Assembly: GCF_015207735.1 (NCBI RefSeq)
Contig: NZ_JADEWG010000008.1
Location: forward strand, 1-64,000
Length of the DNA stretch: 64,000 nt
Reading direction: 5' to 3'
Origin: [Phormidium] sp. LEGE 05292
Lineage (GTDB): Bacteria > Cyanobacteriota > Cyanobacteriia > Cyanobacteriales > Aerosakkonemataceae
In this document: piece after piece, positions 48,264 through 55,966 of the stretch
Position numbering within the stretch: the first letter of the stretch is position 1
Layout of the letters: each line of letters begins with the position of its first letter
Made by a program: the position numbers and the translations under genes
Notes under the pieces: model-generated
The model's database searches: none
What the model was told of the DNA's origin: nothing
The model's input: the letters and a program-made list of their open reading frames with translations, nothing else

Positions 48264-49751
48264 ATGAACCCAGTACAAAAATTAACCATTAAAAAGAAAC
48301 GCTTAACTGGAAAACTGTTATTTGAAAGAGTGATGGCAGCGATCGTCCTACTCAACTTCACACTAGTAATATTTGATCTGACATACATATATTGGCGTAA
48401 TTTCTGGCTCCAGGGTAATCTCAGACTGGTTAATTTAACAATTAACGTTCCTTTACCCCCTATTACTAAATGGTACGATCCAGTTAAAGGTATTGAACCT
48501 CATCGAGACACAGCAAGTTATCTAAATACAGTAGACCAACTAAAACAACAAATATCACAAACAGGTTTACAGTCTCCAGAAGTAAAAAAATTGTTAGCAG
48601 ACTTGCAGCTTCAAAGCGTAGAAATGATCGAAACAAATCCTTTTGCAGTGGCTAACAAAACAGGTACATTAGAAAAAATTAAAAATCGGATGCGACGGCA
48701 TCTCGATAATGACTCTGCTAAAGAATCATTTCGAGAATTTTGGAGCTATTCATTCTTATCACAAAGAGGTTGGGAAGAGGAATTAGCTTATTTTAAAAGA
48801 CAAATTCAACCATTAATTGAAACTAATTATTTCCGTCCCATTGGCGAAAACGGTCAACCAGTTGATTTTTTCTTTGAACGCATTGATTGGGTATTTTTCC
48901 TGATTTTTAGTCTTGAATTAATCGGAAGAGTAATATATATTAGTCGCAATAATAAAGGCGTAAGTTGGCGAGAAGCAATTCTTTGGCGTTGGTATGACAT
49001 TTTCCTCCTCTTACCATTTTGGCGACCTTTAAGAATCATTTCAGTTTACATGAGGCTCAAACAATGTGAAATCAAGCGATTTGATAGGTTTCAACGACAA
49101 GTTAACCAGCTTTTTATTGCTAATTTTGCCGAAGAAATTATTGAAGTAGTGGTAGTGGGAGTAATTAATCAAATCCAAGATTCCATTCGCCAGGGAGATT
49201 TAAGAAATTGGTTATCTCAATCTCAAAATCGCACTTATATAGACCTCAATAATACCGATGAAGTTGCAGAAATTAGTAACATAGTTACCAGATTAGCTGT
49301 TTACAGAATTTTTCCTAAAGTTCAGCCAGACATTGAACTATTACTCCAGCATAATATAGAAAGCGTGCTGCAAAATTTACCAGCTTACCGCAGTGTTCAA
49401 GCTATTCCCGGATTAGCCAACTTACCCAAACAATTAACCGAAAGATTAGTTGCCGAAATTTCCCAAGCCACATATCAAGGTTTAACATCTGCGATCGAAG
49501 ATCCAGTAGGTGCGAAACTATCAGGAAATTTGGTAAATCATTTAGGGGAAGCGATCGCCCAAGAACTAAGAAACCAACATACCATAGAAAGAATTCAGAG
49601 CTTACTGATTGATATGCTCGAAGAAATCAAAATAAACTACGTCGAACGCCTATCTCAAGAAGATATGCAACAAATTATTGAACAAACCAGACAACTGCGC
49701 CAGAGAACAGCACCAAAAGCAGTAGAAATCCTTCCCTATAAACAAATATGA
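48264..49751 (+). CDS. Multi-helix membrane protein with a voltage-sensor-like segment
   Basis: 495 residues. Helix one is at about 24-48 (AAIVLLNFTLVIFDLTYIYW). After a soluble stretch of 150 residues, helices near 200-226 (WVFFLIFSLELIGRVIYI) and 234-266 follow; the latter reads ILWRWYDIFLLLPFWRPLRI then ISVYMRLKQ. Acidic-plus-Arg helix followed by an Arg-spaced helix recalls S2-S4 of ion-channel voltage sensors, but there is no pore motif. The C-terminal 220 residues are soluble and helical. It is a conserved-looking protein I cannot name; ion-transport involvement is inference. Confidence 0.75.
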   Translation: MNPVQKLTIKKKRLTGKLLFERVMAAIVLLNFTLVIFDLTYIYWRNFWLQGNLRLVNLTINVPLPPITKWYDPVKGIEPHRDTASYLNTVDQLKQQISQTGLQSPEVKKLLADLQLQSVEMIETNPFAVANKTGTLEKIKNRMRRHLDNDSAKESFREFWSYSFLSQRGWEEELAYFKRQIQPLIETNYFRPIGENGQPVDFFFERIDWVFFLIFSLELIGRVIYISRNNKGVSWREAILWRWYDIFLLLPFWRPLRIISVYMRLKQCEIKRFDRFQRQVNQLFIANFAEEIIEVVVVGVINQIQDSIRQGDLRNWLSQSQNRTYIDLNNTDEVAEISNIVTRLAVYRIFPKVQPDIELLLQHNIESVLQNLPAYRSVQAIPGLANLPKQLTERLVAEISQATYQGLTSAIEDPVGAKLSGNLVNHLGEAIAQELRNQHTIERIQSLLIDMLEEIKINYVERLSQEDMQQIIEQTRQLRQRTAPKAVEILPYKQI

Positions 49752-50117
49752 ACCCCAACAATCAAAACACCAGAGTCAGCTGACTCAGTGCAAGCAAGAC
49801 TTTAGCTAATCGGTAAGTTAGAATACAATCAAGATTGCGCTCGGCGTGAAAGTACAACCAAGAAGCATTCTGAAATAAAAGCAGAGCGCAGAGGTATCTT
49901 GGTAATACTGGCGCTATCTCTCATAAGTGAGAGCAGGAAAGTAGGGGCGGGTGAGAGCAGATATGTTTGCGTTTCTCACAGATAATCTCTCAGCAAAACC
50001 CTCCCTTAAGTAATCGGTTCCCCTAATCCTCGGAAGTCAACCGTGGGATTTTGTAGAAGGAAAAATTCTTTCATGGGAAGTGGGTATTTGCCCCACTTTT
50101 TTTATTGGAGTTGACGG
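49752..50117 (+). promoter_or_regulatory. Structured 366-base leader of the rimP-nusA-ylxR-infB cluster
   Basis: Several stem-loops stand in a row: GAGTCAG/CTGACTC at about 49771-49784, CTCTCA/TGAGAG at about 49918-49933, and GTGAGA/TCTCAC at about 49951-49979. An intrinsic terminator is at 50078-50106. GTGGG at about 50043 could compete for the terminator's CCCAC, as an antiterminator would. The region could instead hold a separate small RNA. Confidence 0.6.
50078..50106 (+). terminator. Intrinsic terminator directly ahead of rimP
   Basis: AAGTGGG and CCCACTT flank TATTTGC and run into seven T. Only about 12 bases separate the T-run from the rimP ATG, and GGAG sits between, leaving no room for a promoter. 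Confidence 0.88.
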
Positions 50118-50579
50118 ATGACTCATCCCTTAGTACCACAAATTATCGAAATCGCTAACCCCATCGCTGAAGCCTTAAGCTTAGAAGTTGTGGGCGTAGT
50201 ATTTCATACCAACCAAAGCCCTCCCGTGTTGCGAGTAGACATTCGTAATCCTGTGCAAGACACTAGTTTAGATGACTGCGAACGGATGAGTCGGGCTTTA
50301 GAAACCAGTTTAGATGCCACAGGCGTAATTCCAGACGCTTATGTACTGGAAATTTCCAGTCCGGGAATTTCTCGCCATCTATCCAGCGATAGAGAGTTTA
50401 TCTCCTTTAAAGGATTTACAGTACTCGTCAATACATCTGAACCTTATGAAGGCAAGAGTGAGTGGCGAGGAAAACTGATCAAGCGAGATGACGCATCAGT
50501 TTACTTGAACCAAAAAGGACGGGCTTTCGCCATTCCCCGCCCCTTGATTACTAGGGTGCAACTGGAAGAGAAAGAGTAG
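50118..50579 (+). CDS. rimP: Ribosome maturation factor RimP
   Basis: A 153-residue factor for 30S subunit maturation. Characteristic parts are [41 protein letters not shown] and [24 protein letters not shown] is eight bases before the ATG. It is the first gene of the rimP-nusA-ylxR-infB cluster, an order conserved from E. coli to cyanobacteria. A terminator immediately upstream suggests that its transcription depends on read-through. Confidence 0.97.
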
Positions 50580-50733
50580 CAATTTTCGATTTTAGATTGC
50601 CGATTTTCGATTTTTGATCGTACATATACGGTCGCTAAATGAAAGTTGGGGAATCGATTGCATATCGCCAATCTAAAATTCACCCACCAGAGTGTCACCT
50701 CGGAAAAACAAATAAATCGGAGGCTTTTTACTT
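50580..50733. other. 154-base rimP-nusA spacer
   Basis: It carries tandem AT-rich words of the type CGATTTT(A/T)GAT near 50587-50620. CGGAGG lies before the nusA GTG. No gene is seen. Confidence 0.5.
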
Positions 50734-52032
50734 GTGACGATCGTTAAATTACCAGGACTAAAAGACTTAATAGAAAGTATTAGTCGAGAACGTAACTTAC
50801 CCAAACATTCCGTTAAAGAAGCACTGCGGGAAGCACTTCTTAAAGGATACGAACGTTATCGACGCACACAAAACATGGATCGACGGCACTTCGACGACAA
50901 CTACTTCGACAACTTAGAAGTCGAACTAGACGTAGAAGAAGAAGGCTTTCGAGTTCTCGCCACTAAAAGTATTGTGGAAAAAGAAAAACTCAGCAGCCCC
51001 GATCACGAAATAGCCCTTGAAGAAGTTAAAGAAGTTGTAGAAGAAGCCCAACTAGGCGACACCGTAGTATTAGATGTAACACCAGACCAAGGCGAATTTG
51101 GGCGCATGGCAGCGATCCAAACCAAACAAGTACTCTCCCAAAAACTGCGAGATCAGCAACGAAAGTTGATTCAAGAAGAATTCCAAGACTTAGAAGGAAC
51201 AGTTTTACAAGCCAGAGTCTTGCGATTTGAAAGGCAATCAGTAATCCTCGCTGTCAGCAGTAACTTTGGTCAACCAGAAGTCGAAGCCGAACTACCCAAA
51301 CGGGAACAGCTTCCCAACGACAACTACCGCGCCAACGCCACCTTTAAAGTATTCCTGAAAAAAGTTCGGGAAGGCCCGCAAAGAGGCCCACAACTGCTAG
51401 TATCCAGAGCATCTGCCGGATTAGTAGTTTACCTCTTTGCCAACGAAGTCCCAGAAATTGAAGACGAAGTGGTACGGATAGTCGCCGTAGCTAGGGAGGC
51501 TAATCCGCCCTCACGTTCCCTTGGCCCTCGGACTAAAATAGCAGTAGATACGTTAGAAAGAGACGTAGACCCGGTAGGTGCTTGCATCGGCGCTAGAGGT
51601 TCCCGGATTCAAGTAGTAGTTAACGAATTGCGGGGAGAGAAAATCGACGTAATTCGCTGGTCGCCAGACCCAGCTACCTACATTCAAAATTCCCTCAGTC
51701 CAGCTAGAGTGGAAGAAGTGCGGTTGGTTAACCCTGAAGGTCGGCAAGCTCACATTCTCGTGACCGAAGATCAACTAAGTTTAGCTATTGGCAAAGAAGG
51801 GCAGAACGTTCGTTTAGCAGCCCGTTTAACTGGTTGGAAAATCGATATTAAAGATATTGCCAAGTACGACGCAGCGGCAGAAGACCAAAAAATTGCTGAG
51901 GCATTAGCTAAAGGACAAGCAGCCAGCATTGATGCCGAGAGAGAAGATAGCATCAGAATCTACAGCTTGGATGGCGACGCAGAAGAAACAGACTACGATG
52001 AAGAGACATCTGTGCCAGAAGATGAAGAATAA
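50734..52032 (+). CDS. nusA: Transcription termination/antitermination factor NusA
   Basis: 432 residues from a GTG preceded by CGGAGG. The NusA N-terminal domain (about 1-125), the S1 domain (about 135-205; LEGTVLQARVLRFERQSVIL) and two KH domains (GACIGARGSRIQVVVNELRGEKID near 280 and LAIGKEGQNVRLAARLTGWKIDI near 350) are all present. The tail is acidic. NusA tunes pausing and termination, and in E. coli it represses its own operon leader; the leader terminator ahead of rimP would allow similar control here. Confidence 0.97.
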   Translation: MTIVKLPGLKDLIESISRERNLPKHSVKEALREALLKGYERYRRTQNMDRRHFDDNYFDNLEVELDVEEEGFRVLATKSIVEKEKLSSPDHEIALEEVKEVVEEAQLGDTVVLDVTPDQGEFGRMAAIQTKQVLSQKLRDQQRKLIQEEFQDLEGTVLQARVLRFERQSVILAVSSNFGQPEVEAELPKREQLPNDNYRANATFKVFLKKVREGPQRGPQLLVSRASAGLVVYLFANEVPEIEDEVVRIVAVAREANPPSRSLGPRTKIAVDTLERDVDPVGACIGARGSRIQVVVNELRGEKIDVIRWSPDPATYIQNSLSPARVEEVRLVNPEGRQAHILVTEDQLSLAIGKEGQNVRLAARLTGWKIDIKDIAKYDAAAEDQKIAEALAKGQAASIDAEREDSIRIYSLDGDAEETDYDEETSVPEDEE

Positions 52033-52034
52033 GA

Positions 52035-52409
52035 GTGAAACCTAACTATCGACGTTGTATCAGTTGCCGAAAGGTAGATTTAAAGTCAAATTTTTGGCGG
52101 ATTGTGAGAGTCTATCCATCCCGGCAGGTACAATTAGATGAGGGCATGGGGCGATCGGCCTATCTTTGTCCCCAAGCAACCTGCCTGGAAACAGCCCAGA
52201 AAAAAAATCGCTTAGGTAAGACATTAAGAGCAACCGTACCCCCAGAGCTATATCAAGCCTTATGGCAACGTTTATCCAATCAGCCTGTACAAGCGAATCC
52301 TACAACCCCAAAACTATCAGCATCCGATTCGGCAATAGATGATGGCTACTGGGACAAATGGACAAGGAGACCAGGGGACAAGGAGACTAGGGAACAACAA
52401 GAAAATTAA
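52035..52409 (+). CDS. ylxR: YlxR/DUF448 RNA-binding protein
   Basis: 124 residues from a GTG two bases after the nusA stop, so translation is probably coupled. The core is RRCISCRKVDLKSNFWRIVRVYP, then GRSAYLCPQATCLETAQKKNRLGKTLR, the DUF448 pattern with paired cysteines and basic surface. The E. coli and Bacillus proteins bind nucleic acids. The last 20 residues (from DKWTRRPGDKE) are encoded by GGGGACAAGG-type repeats, the inverse of the CCCCTTGT units seen elsewhere; this tail is probably a recent extension. Confidence 0.93.
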   Translation: MKPNYRRCISCRKVDLKSNFWRIVRVYPSRQVQLDEGMGRSAYLCPQATCLETAQKKNRLGKTLRATVPPELYQALWQRLSNQPVQANPTTPKLSASDSAIDDGYWDKWTRRPGDKETREQQEN

Positions 52410-52843
52410 CCTTGAGCCTTTTTTCCCTTGGAGCCATTCTTCCCGGAAAATCAGTTACCTCATGCCTGGGTAATGGGTGCCAGAATAGTAAAAGTCATAA
52501 TTAAACAACAAATGGAGTTAAATAATCAGCCATAACAATCACATTTAAGAAAAATTTGGTGCAAGATTAGAAGAGTGGGTGTGAAGCGGAAAGCGAATCG
52601 CCTTGGAGCAATCCGGCTATTTGACGGACGGAGGCAAAAACAACTACTTTAGAAGTTGGATCTGATTTATTAACTTATCTCAGGAGCCAGAGTCAAGTAA
52701 AAAGCCAAACTGGTTTTTCCTTGGCAGCACCAACACTATTTGAACACCGCCAAAGGAGGCAGCGTTCCAATGATGTAAACAACTATCAAAAACAGTGGCT
52801 CAAAAGAGAGTTACCACTGGTAGGATTCAAGGGGAAAGCGTGG
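52410..52843. other. 434-base ylxR-infB gap
   Basis: Unusually long for this operon. It holds a possible small hairpin (GCCAA with TTGGC near 52708-52729) and CCTTGGAGC/CAGGAGCC words. The frame is open from 52721 but the first 41 codons look unlike IF2. An internal infB promoter or leader is likely; I cannot place it. Confidence 0.5.
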
Positions 52844-55800
52844 ATGAACAACGGCAAAGTCAGAATTTACGAGTTATCACGGGAATTGAATTTGGAAAAT
52901 AAGGATATCCTTGCTATTTGCGACCAGCTGCGAATTCCGGTAAAAAGCCATAGCAGCACCATTCCAGACGCGGATGCAGAACGCATTCGCTCCTTAGCTG
53001 CGGAAAAATACACCGCTCAGCATTCTTCTCCAACTAAAGAGGTAATGAATCGCGTCTCAACATCAGGTTCCAGAAATAACCCCAACTTACAACTTAGCGC
53101 TAATGCGCCCGGTTCGGGAGCTAAACCTAGTGCTCCCAAAAAACAACAGATTTTAGGAATTCGCCAGCATCAGGAGATCTCAAACAACCCAGGCAAGCCG
53201 CAGGGGGCAACAGTGGCAATCCCCCCCAAATCGCCAGTGAACAATCAGCCAACGCAGTCATCCGTAAAACCGACAGCGCCGAACAAACCAGTACGTCCCA
53301 ATCCCCAACCGGAGACGATCGCTAAAGAAGCAGATACGGATACGGAAACATCGGATGATAAACCGGATGGTAAACTCAAACAATTACAGAATCCACCCGT
53401 CACGCCTCCGGTAGCACAAAAACCCAAACTAGTTGAACCACCGTCCAGACCAAGTGCGACTAGCCCTAACACGCCGCTGCCAACACCAAGTCGGCCTCAA
53501 CCTCAACAACCGCAAAAAGCGCAGACAGTTGAGCAGCCAAAGGCAGACCAACCTAAGAGCGAGCAACCCCGGAAAAAACTCAAACCAGTAGGGCAAACAA
53601 GGGATCGGCAAGAAAGACCCGAAAAAGTTGCCCCTACAGGTGAAAAACCAAATCGAGCTTCTGCTGCGGCACCGCTCCCAGCAATACCAGAACTGCAACG
53701 CCCTAAACCGCCAGTCAGACCAACTGCGCCAGCAGCACAGAAATCTCCAGGGAGAACTGTAGGTGAAGAAGATATAGAAACCGCAGTAATAGATGAAGAT
53801 TTAGATGTCAAACCGCGCAGTAAGGCAGATAAAGAACTGAAGCGGCCTGTTGCAATACCGCCCAGGACAGCACCGAAGAAAAAGAAATGGGAAGAAGAGG
53901 AAGAAGAACAACCGCAAAAGGCTGCCAAACTGGCTGGTAAGGGTAAACGCAGCAAGCAAATCATTGATGAAGACGAAATTGATTTCGACGATCCAGAACT
54001 CGATGCTTTAGCTCCGGCGATTCAAGTCAGTTTGTCTGTAGCTCGTCCACCAAAGCCGAAAGCTGCCAAACCATCTCAACCCGTACCAGCTGCTACTTTA
54101 CCAACAGCCAGAACTAAACCTTCACGAGATGGAGGAAGTGCTAGTCGAGCCGCAAATAATAGGCGCAATCGTGAAGAAGCAGCACCAGAACGTCCGCAAA
54201 AGCTAGTATTGACGGGCAATATGACCGTGCAGGAACTAGCCGCAGCTTTGGGAATCGCAGAAACGGAAATCATCAGAAAGTTATTCATGAAGGGAATAGC
54301 CGTTAATCTGACCCAAAATCTGGATATGGCTACCACAACGATGGTGGCAACCGAACTGGGTGTAGAAGTAGAAACTGCTCAGAAGCAATCGGAAGCTACT
54401 AAAGGTAGCGAGATGATTGATGCTGAAGACCTGGAATACCTAGAGCGTCGTCCTCCAGTAGTTACCATCATGGGTCACGTAGACCACGGTAAAACCAGCT
54501 TGTTGGATGCGATCCGAGCTAGCAAAGTGGCTCAGGGAGAAGCAGGCGGCATTACCCAGCATATTGGTGCTTACCACGTAGATGTTCAGCATAACGGCGA
54601 AACTCAACAAGTGGTCTTCCTGGATACTCCTGGTCACGAAGCCTTTACTGCAATGCGGGCGCGGGGAGCCAGGGTAACAGATATTGCTGTGTTAGTAGTA
54701 GCTGCTGATGATGGGGTACAACCACAGACAATTGAAGCAATTAGTCACGCCAAAGCTGCGGAAGTGCCAATTTTGGTGGCAATTAACAAGATTGATAAAC
54801 CAGAAGCACAGCCCGATCGCGTTAAACAAGAATTAACCGAATTTGCTCTAGTCCCAGAAGAATGGGGCGGTGACACGATTATGGTGCCTGTGAGTGCCAT
54901 CCAAAAAGAAAACTTGGATACACTGCTGGAAATGATTCTGCTGATTGCTGAAGTAGATGAAAACCTATTGGCTAACCCGAATCGGGCAGCTAAAGGTACT
55001 GTAATTGAAGCTAACCTGGATAAATCTAGAGGGCCAGTGGCTACCCTGTTAGTCCAAAATGGTACTTTACAAGTTGGTGATATCCTAGTAGCAGGATCGG
55101 CCTTTGGTAAAGTTCGAGCAATGATTGACGATCGCGGTCAGCGTGTCGATGCCGCAACTCCTTCCTTCGCCGTAGAAGTCTTAGGTTTGGGTGACGTTCC
55201 GGCAGCAGGTGATGAGTTTGAAGTCTACCAAGATGAAAAGAAAGCTAGACTAACTGCCGAAGCACGCGCCGAAGAACAACGGCAATCTCGCTTGATGCGC
55301 GGTGTGACTCTGACTACCCTCTCGGCTCAAGCTCAAGAAGGAGAACTTAAAGAACTCAACTTGATCTTGAAAGCAGATGTTCAAGGTTCTCTAGAAGCAA
55401 TTATCGGCTCATTACAACAACTGCCGCAAAATCAGGTACAAATTCGTATCCTGTTAGCTGCACCAGGGGAAGTTACGCAGACAGACGTTGACCTAGCCGC
55501 AGCTAGTAATGCTGTAATTATTGGCTTCAACACTACCCTGGCTAGTGGCGCACGCCAAGCTGCCGACCAAGCAGGTATTGATGTCCGCGAGTACAACATC
55601 ATCTACAAACTCTTGGAAGATATCCAAGGAGCGATGGAAGGCTTACTGGAACCAGAATTGGTGGAAGAACCCCTTGGTCAGGTGGAAGTCCGGGCTGTCT
55701 TCCCTGTGGGTCGAGGTGCGGTTGCTGGTTGTTATATTCAATCTGGCAAGGTGATCCGTAACTGTAAAGTGCGGGTACGCCGCAATAACCAAGTGATTTA

Positions 55801-55966
55801 CGAAGGCTCTTTGGATTCCTTGAAACGGATGAAGGAAGATGCTAGAGAAGTCAATGCCGGATTTGAGTGCGGTGTTGGGATCGATAAGTTCAACGACTGG
55901 CAAGAAGGTGACATTATCGAGGCTTACCGCATGGTGACAAAACGCCGTACTTTGACTGGCAGTTAG
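52844..55966 (+). CDS. infB: Translation initiation factor IF-2
   Basis: 1040 residues from the [24 protein letters not shown], the conserved IF2 start, with GGGGA upstream; 41 more in-frame codons exist upstream but are not IF2-like. Residues about 60-470 are Pro/Gln/Lys-rich and poorly ordered, typical of cyanobacterial IF2. The GTPase domain starts near 540 with GHVDHGKT (about 543-550), then DTPGHEAF and NKIDKPEA. The end (domains III and IV) has [19 protein letters not shown] and [16 protein letters not shown]. It guides initiator tRNA to the 30S subunit. Confidence 0.97.

Follow-up and report, generated by a model that had tools for sequence, protein, structure and literature searches.

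A conserved terminator hairpin in the leader of the cyanobacterial rimP-nusA-ylxR-infB operon and its probable part in NusA-sensitive attenuation

Leader terminators of rimP-nusA operons and the locus in [Phormidium] sp. LEGE 05292

The closest described system is the rimP-leader (Naville and Gautheret 2010), a terminator-type attenuator that was called the most ubiquitous and for which feedback by NusA was proposed (PMC2965389). As its main text describes it, this element combines a GGG/CCC core and a U stretch upstream of rimP-nusA-infB with a signature tied to the operon and shows no evident antiterminator, and in all of these respects it resembles the leader analysed here. NusA feedback through leader attenuation is described for B. 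subtilis, likewise with an intrinsic terminator gating read-through into the gene (PMC12288461), and the metY-rimP-nusA operon of E. coli carries the leader terminators t1 and t2 and is under NusA control (PMC6511841). For rimP-nusA of S. agalactiae, a short terminated RNA and a long transcript from one transcription start site (TSS) were described and NusA feedback was proposed (PMC4448216). Cyanobacteria are described as being without Rho, and in vitro, NusA stimulated the RNA polymerase of S. elongatus at each of the two intrinsic terminators examined (PMC13289151).

We analysed a stretch of 64,000 nt (contig NZ_JADEWG010000008.1, positions 1 to 64,000), referred to as the window. A first-pass annotation of this DNA had named an operon rimP-nusA-ylxR-infB behind a leader ending in a terminator, and RimP_N, NusA_N plus KH, YlxR and IF-2 domains were all detected. 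The features at the 3' end of the leader and in the operon are as follows:

50078..50103, + strand: intrinsic terminator (rimP-leader motif), from sequence, relatives and predicted hairpin energy; AAGTGGG 50078-50084, loop TATTTGC 50085-50091, CCCACTT 50092-50098, T run 50097-50103
50104..50107, + strand: ATTG directly after the T run; cyanobacterial relatives mostly have RTTG here (counts from 57 relatives)
50118..50579, + strand: rimP (PF02576, E 7.3e-16; PF17384, E 5.6e-07)
50734..52032, + strand: nusA (PF08529 and PF13184, NusA_N plus KH domains)
52035..52409, + strand: ylxR (PF04296)
52841..55966, + strand: infB (IF-2 domains; longest ORF from 52721)

The leader occupies an intergenic spacer of 366 nt, bounded by a 495-aa ORF (48264-49751), for which no Pfam match was obtained at E 0.001, and by the rimP ATG at 50118. 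The terminator that had been placed just 5' of rimP, AAGTGGG/CCCACTT with a seven-T run, is present in the sequence; its description as a stem plus seven T holds for the number of T, two of which lie inside the stem. The segment from the T run to the ATG, ATTGGAGTTGACGG (50104-50117), measures 14 nt and not about 12 bases as first given. The conclusion drawn from this distance stands: the gap, which is at most 20 nt in 39/57 relatives, is too short for a promoter between terminator and rimP, which is thereby ruled out, and rimP transcription must therefore pass through the terminator. The predicted energy of the hairpin is -8.4 kcal/mol (median of the 57 relatives, -9.5). The pattern AGTGGGn2-10CCCRCTTTTTTT had a single match in the window and none in 100 shuffles, and it is present as a single copy in the window's own genome. 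A simple terminator scan did not include the hairpin at 50078-50103 among its outputs, possibly since the stem can continue into the T run through G-U pairs.

Compared with the published rimP-leader, the terminator lies 14 nt before the start codon, where a range of 4-130 nt before rimP-nusA-infB is described, and it shows the GGG/CCC core followed by a U stretch as AAGTGGG/CCCACTT plus T7. The signature is also operon-specific (109 of the 118 matches listed in the collection scan described below, one copy in the genome), and nusA follows as the second gene with no promoter room in the 14 nt, as in leaders of the NusA-feedback type. The published core reads GGGc...gCCC (PMC2965389), whereas the window has GGGT and thus no c...g closing the core; we take the lower-case letters to denote less conserved positions. 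The main text of the same paper reports no larger conserved element, whereas cyanobacteria have the recurrent hairpin P1 (see below) and RTTG. With regard to the other systems, E. coli resembles the window in carrying CTGGGCTTTAGGCCCTTTTTTTATG upstream of rimP (sequence inspected) but has two terminators and an upstream tRNA gene (PMC6511841), where the window has one clear terminator. The S. agalactiae leader terminates 31 nt past its TSS (PMC4448216), whereas the TSS in the window is represented by candidate sites, and the NusA effect reported for B. subtilis (PMC12288461) is one that we infer for the cyanobacterial leader.

The Rfam family RF01770 (rimP), a model of 102 positions, shares the gene name. 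It gave no hit in window positions 48500-51000 up to E 1, and at its 47-bit cut-off none of 60 relatives and one of 14 control genomes passed (stricter filters, more than 40 genomes searched); because it passes in just one of the controls, the result in the relatives says little. In the same region, the Rfam search gave only a chance-level match to CncR1 (19.7 bits against a threshold of 76), and the leader was rejected as an RNA of a known Rfam family.

A cyanobacterial version of this control had been thought undescribed. No cyanobacterial account of the leader was found in the literature texts covered: the main text of PMC2965389, its species tables lying outside the search, holds no word beginning 'cyanobacteri', rimP is absent from the text of PMC13289151, and nusA and rimP are absent from PMC5386190 and PMC8155712; nor did any title or abstract opening among the papers listed point to such an account. 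Supplements lay outside this scope, and the site may be tabulated there. The novelty was nevertheless overstated, since the kind was published in 2010 as the rimP-leader (PMC2965389).

Distribution of the hairpin in cyanobacteria and other phyla

RimP was found in 59/60 relatives. Of these, 57 carry the motif GTGGG-n5-8-CCCRC with at least six T no more than 800 nt 5' of rimP. The two exceptions are L028, with the motif about 1.6 kb upstream of rimP, and L059, where only a diverged remnant, CCCCGCTTTTTTTG, is left. The pattern is present in one copy in 51 of the 60 relatives, in two copies in three and in none in six (54 with the pattern; reversed-pattern control, 0/60), and it occurs in 109/386 genomes of the phylum (control, 0/386). 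In Microcoleus-like genomes (L034, L092, L105, L107, L117, L134 and L028) the gap between T run and rimP is roughly 230-540 nt and about 1.6 kb in one.

The expression used for the relatives required GTGGG and CC-Y-R-Y-T, so that the constancy of the stem in the 57 relatives is partly imposed; the 5'-arm U, imposed in this way, is invariant, and of the two partners allowed A occurs in 28 and G in 29. Neither the length of the T run nor the bases behind it were imposed: 56/57 relatives have seven or eight T and one has six, and the four following bases are A/G in 57, T in 55, T in 51 and G in 51. The base following GGG is T in 45/57 cyanobacterial relatives and C in 52/66 non-cyanobacterial leaders (ten loci judged to lie outside the operon were dropped before the non-cyanobacterial base, RTTG and fold counts). 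In an alignment of 41 leaders out of 52, selected for a CTTCTTGG-like box and called A1, four of seven terminator pairs are invariant and none shows compensatory changes.

The exceptions were surveyed in 34 hand-picked, not random, genomes, 14 from other orders of the same class and 20 more distant within the phylum. By scan and by eye, the motif form was seen in four of the 14 (one with six T), a variant in two and neither in eight, five of which belong to family f41. In L196 and L198-L200 of f41, the rimP leaders are without a T run but have a recurring hairpin, CCTGACGGTACCTC..GAGGCGGGTCA, and a GGGC...GCCC-like hairpin closer to the gene; by eye, L195 of the same family has neither. For the 20 distant members, rimP starts were estimated from partial RimP matches. 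In L217 the hairpin has an extended stem and is followed by six T, and five loci from another class (L208-L210, L218, L219) have the AGTGGG...CCCRC core before rimP, the full T run being absent. A different pre-rimP terminator, AAAAGAA...TTCTTTTTT, is found in five of six f47 genomes (L214-L216, L224, L225), two f54 genomes have a third type, and seven of the 20 are without any. Some cyanobacteria and non-photosynthetic relatives are without T run or motif.

A scan of a collection of 84,980 species with a pattern including RTTG returned at least 118 exact matches, and in 109 of the 118 matches listed a RimP or NusA match was found downstream (limits accepted: rimP up to 1,200 nt, nusA up to 2,500 nt); matches outside the operon are kept in the denominators of all operon counts. 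Two of the nine unplaced matches probably precede rimP or nusA as well, as L090 is apparently the same place as L256 (position 7655, same flank) with NusA downstream, and the record of L168 ends 22 nt past the match, yet starts a RimP-like MAHP. The other seven look like chance hits. Their nearest long ORFs were checked in four, leaving out L106, L167 and L177: L093 and L104 account for a carboxypeptidase-like protein and EzrA, and in L087 and L103, two Patescibacteria with the same hairpin, the nearest long same-strand downstream ORF is signal peptidase and not nusA.

According to database record labels (L060-L177), which may err for MAGs, the 118 matches listed include Cyanobacteria, Desulfobulbaceae and other Deltaproteobacteria, Planctomycetota, Chloroflexota, Marinimicrobia, Hydrogenedentota, Acidobacteria, Alphaproteobacteria and Eggerthellaceae. 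The RimP of L076, labelled Candidatus Gracilibacteria, is 68% identical to that of the window; the label is therefore probably wrong and the genome cyanobacterial. For 33 loci from the matches listed, 32 genomes were covered, and one copy was counted in 31 of them (reversed control, 0/32); in the 32nd, G435, whose site is not in the operon, a palindromic site was counted on both strands.

With the pattern lacking RTTG, 28/118 Desulfobacterota genomes matched (reversed control, 2/118), with rimP downstream in 24/28 loci. The other four either end 7 nt past the match (L231) or precede an AbiU2-like gene (L237), an FG-GAP protein (L246) and an ORF without Pfam match (L253). In Planctomycetota, 9/119 genomes matched (reversed control, 0/119), and nusA lay downstream in eight of nine loci (30 to 286 nt, by match position), the ninth standing before a nuclease-like gene. 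RTTG was present after the T run in 6/34 non-cyanobacterial loci selected without it, and was rejected as an ancient part of the element.

The hairpin also stands before nusA without rimP, namely in 12 of the 118 matches listed. We searched for RimP_N in 16 genomes with the hairpin before nusA and no rimP between them (nine of the 12 listed, omitting those of L073, L101 and L129, plus seven from the Planctomycetota scan). No match was obtained in 15 by the single Pfam model used, PF02576, which finds RimP in 10/14 control genomes, archaea included; in the exception, G602, the RimP match lies on another contig. Where RimP seems absent, the element thus stays with nusA, which makes NusA a likelier regulator than RimP.

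Structure and candidate promoters of the upstream leader

Several stem-loops in series had been described in the leader. Folding does predict them, but the fold of the whole leader is only somewhat better than that of shuffled sequences (z -2.12; 1/100 shuffles equal). The elements upstream of the terminator are listed below, where G001 is the single congener compared:

49819..49829, + strand: candidate -10s TAGAAT / TACAAT, an alternative upstream promoter, inside a block conserved with G001
49918..49933, + strand: upstream hairpin CTCTCA-TAAG-TGAGAG, from folding and an A-T to T-A compensatory change in G001
49941..50009, + strand: possible long-range stem GTAGGGGCGGGT (49941-49952) / ACCCTCCCTTAA (49998-50009), by eye from the G001 alignment
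49981..49986, + strand: candidate -10 GATAAT (5 of 6), one possible promoter, from sequence and kept in G001
50025..50050, + strand: hairpin P1, AATCCTCGG / CCG-T-GGGATT, from folding, a compensatory change and a structure peak in 82 leaders
50056..50072, + strand: small hairpin P2, GAAGGAA / TTCTTTC, just 5' of the terminator, from fold prediction only

P1 and the hairpin at 49918-49933 each show one compensatory change against G001, which is CGG/CCG to CAG/CTG in P1 and spans an alignment gap in the loop in the other. The long-range stem, which folding did not establish, has 12/12 pairs in G001 and 10/12 in the window.

We also used 82 nonredundant cyanobacterial leaders out of 132. Folding in 36-nt windows gave a peak at -58 to -22 (mean z -1.56, 44% below -1.5), with -1.20 and -1.03 in the adjoining windows, -0.12 to -0.64 in eight other windows ending before the hairpin and -0.73 in the window reaching the hairpin's first bases. 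A hairpin of at least six pairs, bulges allowed, was found at the P1 distance in 63/82 leaders, compared with 42.8 for shuffled leaders (at most 53 in 20 rounds), with a mean energy of -12.1 against -8.6 kcal/mol. The peak is weak (-0.53) in the 66 non-cyanobacterial leaders, so P1 looks cyanobacterial.

In A1, both-side changes occur in 7/8 P1 pairs, and 80.8% of P1 cells are paired. Taking P1 and terminator together, the paired share is 90.0% of cells, compared with 24.4-57.4% when slid, and 41 cells show both-side changes compared with 15.8 in shuffled alignments (reached in 0/500 shuffles); the number of pairs with such changes is 7 against 5.2, a value reached by 70/500 shuffles. P1 was placed in A1 by hand from one sequence, and these values lean towards that structure, a lean from which the alignment-free fold tests are free. 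RNAalifold did not report P1 on A1, which we think is caused by misaligned P1 arms. What is new here is the cyanobacterial form with P1, conserved in structure more than in sequence, and with RTTG after the T run.

The block conserved between the window and G001 begins near 49795, making a 5' end near 49800 possible. A promoter scan of the window listed neither GATAAT nor TAGAAT/TACAAT, and by eye no -35 partner of GATAAT was seen. Across the 82 leaders, counts based on a simple consensus gave 31 and 30 -10-like hexamers in the 6-nt windows beginning at -73 and -20, respectively (mean 11.0); with a -35-like partner, the numbers were 23 (window from -72 or -73) and 15 (from -20; mean 6.4). The -73 peak would place the TSS about 60 nt 5' of the hairpin and before P1. 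The -20 peak falls within A/T-rich sequence and may mark a promoter or reflect composition only; if the TSS is close to the hairpin, as in S. agalactiae, P1 would be absent from that transcript. Attenuation as a reading is independent of the choice of TSS, and its odds are therefore unaffected by the second peak.

Interpretation of the leader and its significance

The best reading is that the leader is a NusA-sensitive transcription attenuator of the rimP-nusA-ylxR-infB operon, to which we assign a probability of roughly 0.7. This agrees with the first-pass annotation and is favoured by the need for read-through and the conserved link to nusA. RNA polymerase would start upstream, probably form P1 and then meet the hairpin and U tract before rimP, where it would either terminate, giving a short leader RNA, or continue into the operon genes. 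Termination at intrinsic terminators is known to be enhanced by NusA; plentiful NusA should therefore lower read-through, and scarce NusA would permit it, which would amount to negative feedback.

Several points count against the attenuator reading: an ordinary NusA-stimulated terminator would not require invariant letters, T run or motif are missing from some cyanobacteria and non-photosynthetic relatives, and the simple terminator scan missed the hairpin. Terminator stems usually drift with compensating changes; that this one is nearly identical between phyla suggests that it is recognised directly. AGUGGG/CCCRCU might thus be a very old cis element whose letters are read by the complex of NusA and RNA polymerase, a dedicated NusA sensor across phyla, with P1 as a second input added by cyanobacteria; we put this forward tentatively, as an idea that is possible and not the likelier one.

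The regulator might instead be RimP, or another ribosome-assembly signal, binding the hairpin or P1. RimP was named as a possible regulator in the main text of PMC2965389, the cyanobacterial loci begin with rimP, and P1 is structured and lies close to the terminator, but the same hairpin stands before nusA where no RimP domain was found (15/16 genomes), and we regard this version as very improbable. The hairpin would yield a short RNA in any case, and folding predicts structure along much of the window leader, so that a partial terminator that is fixed and unregulated, or a small-RNA source, has to be weighed as well; one sequence tied to one operon across phyla would exceed the needs of an unregulated stop, and we consider this reading quite improbable. 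A mainly translational or mRNA-stability element, in which hairpin and U run keep a fixed spacing to the start codon, would fit the spacing of 13-15 nt in 32/57 relatives, and a U-rich stretch before the ATG could help ribosome binding. This spacing reaches 230 nt among the same 57 relatives, however, and the hairpin of Planctomycetota precedes another gene, which leaves such an element only a slim chance.

A switch, in which an upstream segment pairs with a terminator arm, seems improbable to us. The GTGGG at 50043-50047, earlier proposed as the competing antiterminator, is part of the P1 3' arm; by eye it is present in 3/10 family members compared, and 6 of the 82 nonredundant leaders contain it, where shuffling gives a mean of 3.3 and at most 7. 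Its membership in P1, which has its own compensatory change, and its frequency within the shuffled range count against this role, for which it was rejected, and a conserved competing pairing was not found in the window. In other families, the ACTTC of the CTTCTTGG box could take this part. The box, which may resemble boxA, is found in about ten families at 23-28 nt 5' of the terminator (the 41 A1 leaders, e.g. L012:1970-2059). It occurs in 14/82 leaders against a shuffled mean of 0.18, and ACTTC in 20 against 6.9; pairing of ACTTC with GAAGT of the terminator is possible in 98.5% of A1 cells compared with 42.0-61.0% when slid, in leaders chosen for the box or a near form. This pairing shows no compensatory changes, however, and the box was not found in the window. 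Covariation had been suggested as a check on both terminator and alternative pairing: P1 shows compensatory changes, but the terminator pairs show none in A1 and the GTGGG pairing is not conserved.

For a NusA-sensitive attenuator, the occurrence of the hairpin before nusA without RimP bears on the choice between NusA and RimP that the main text of PMC2965389 leaves open. The cyanobacterial element is one that Rfam's model does not report, and its hairpin is a short, defined template on which the action of NusA can be tested in the Rho-less cyanobacteria.
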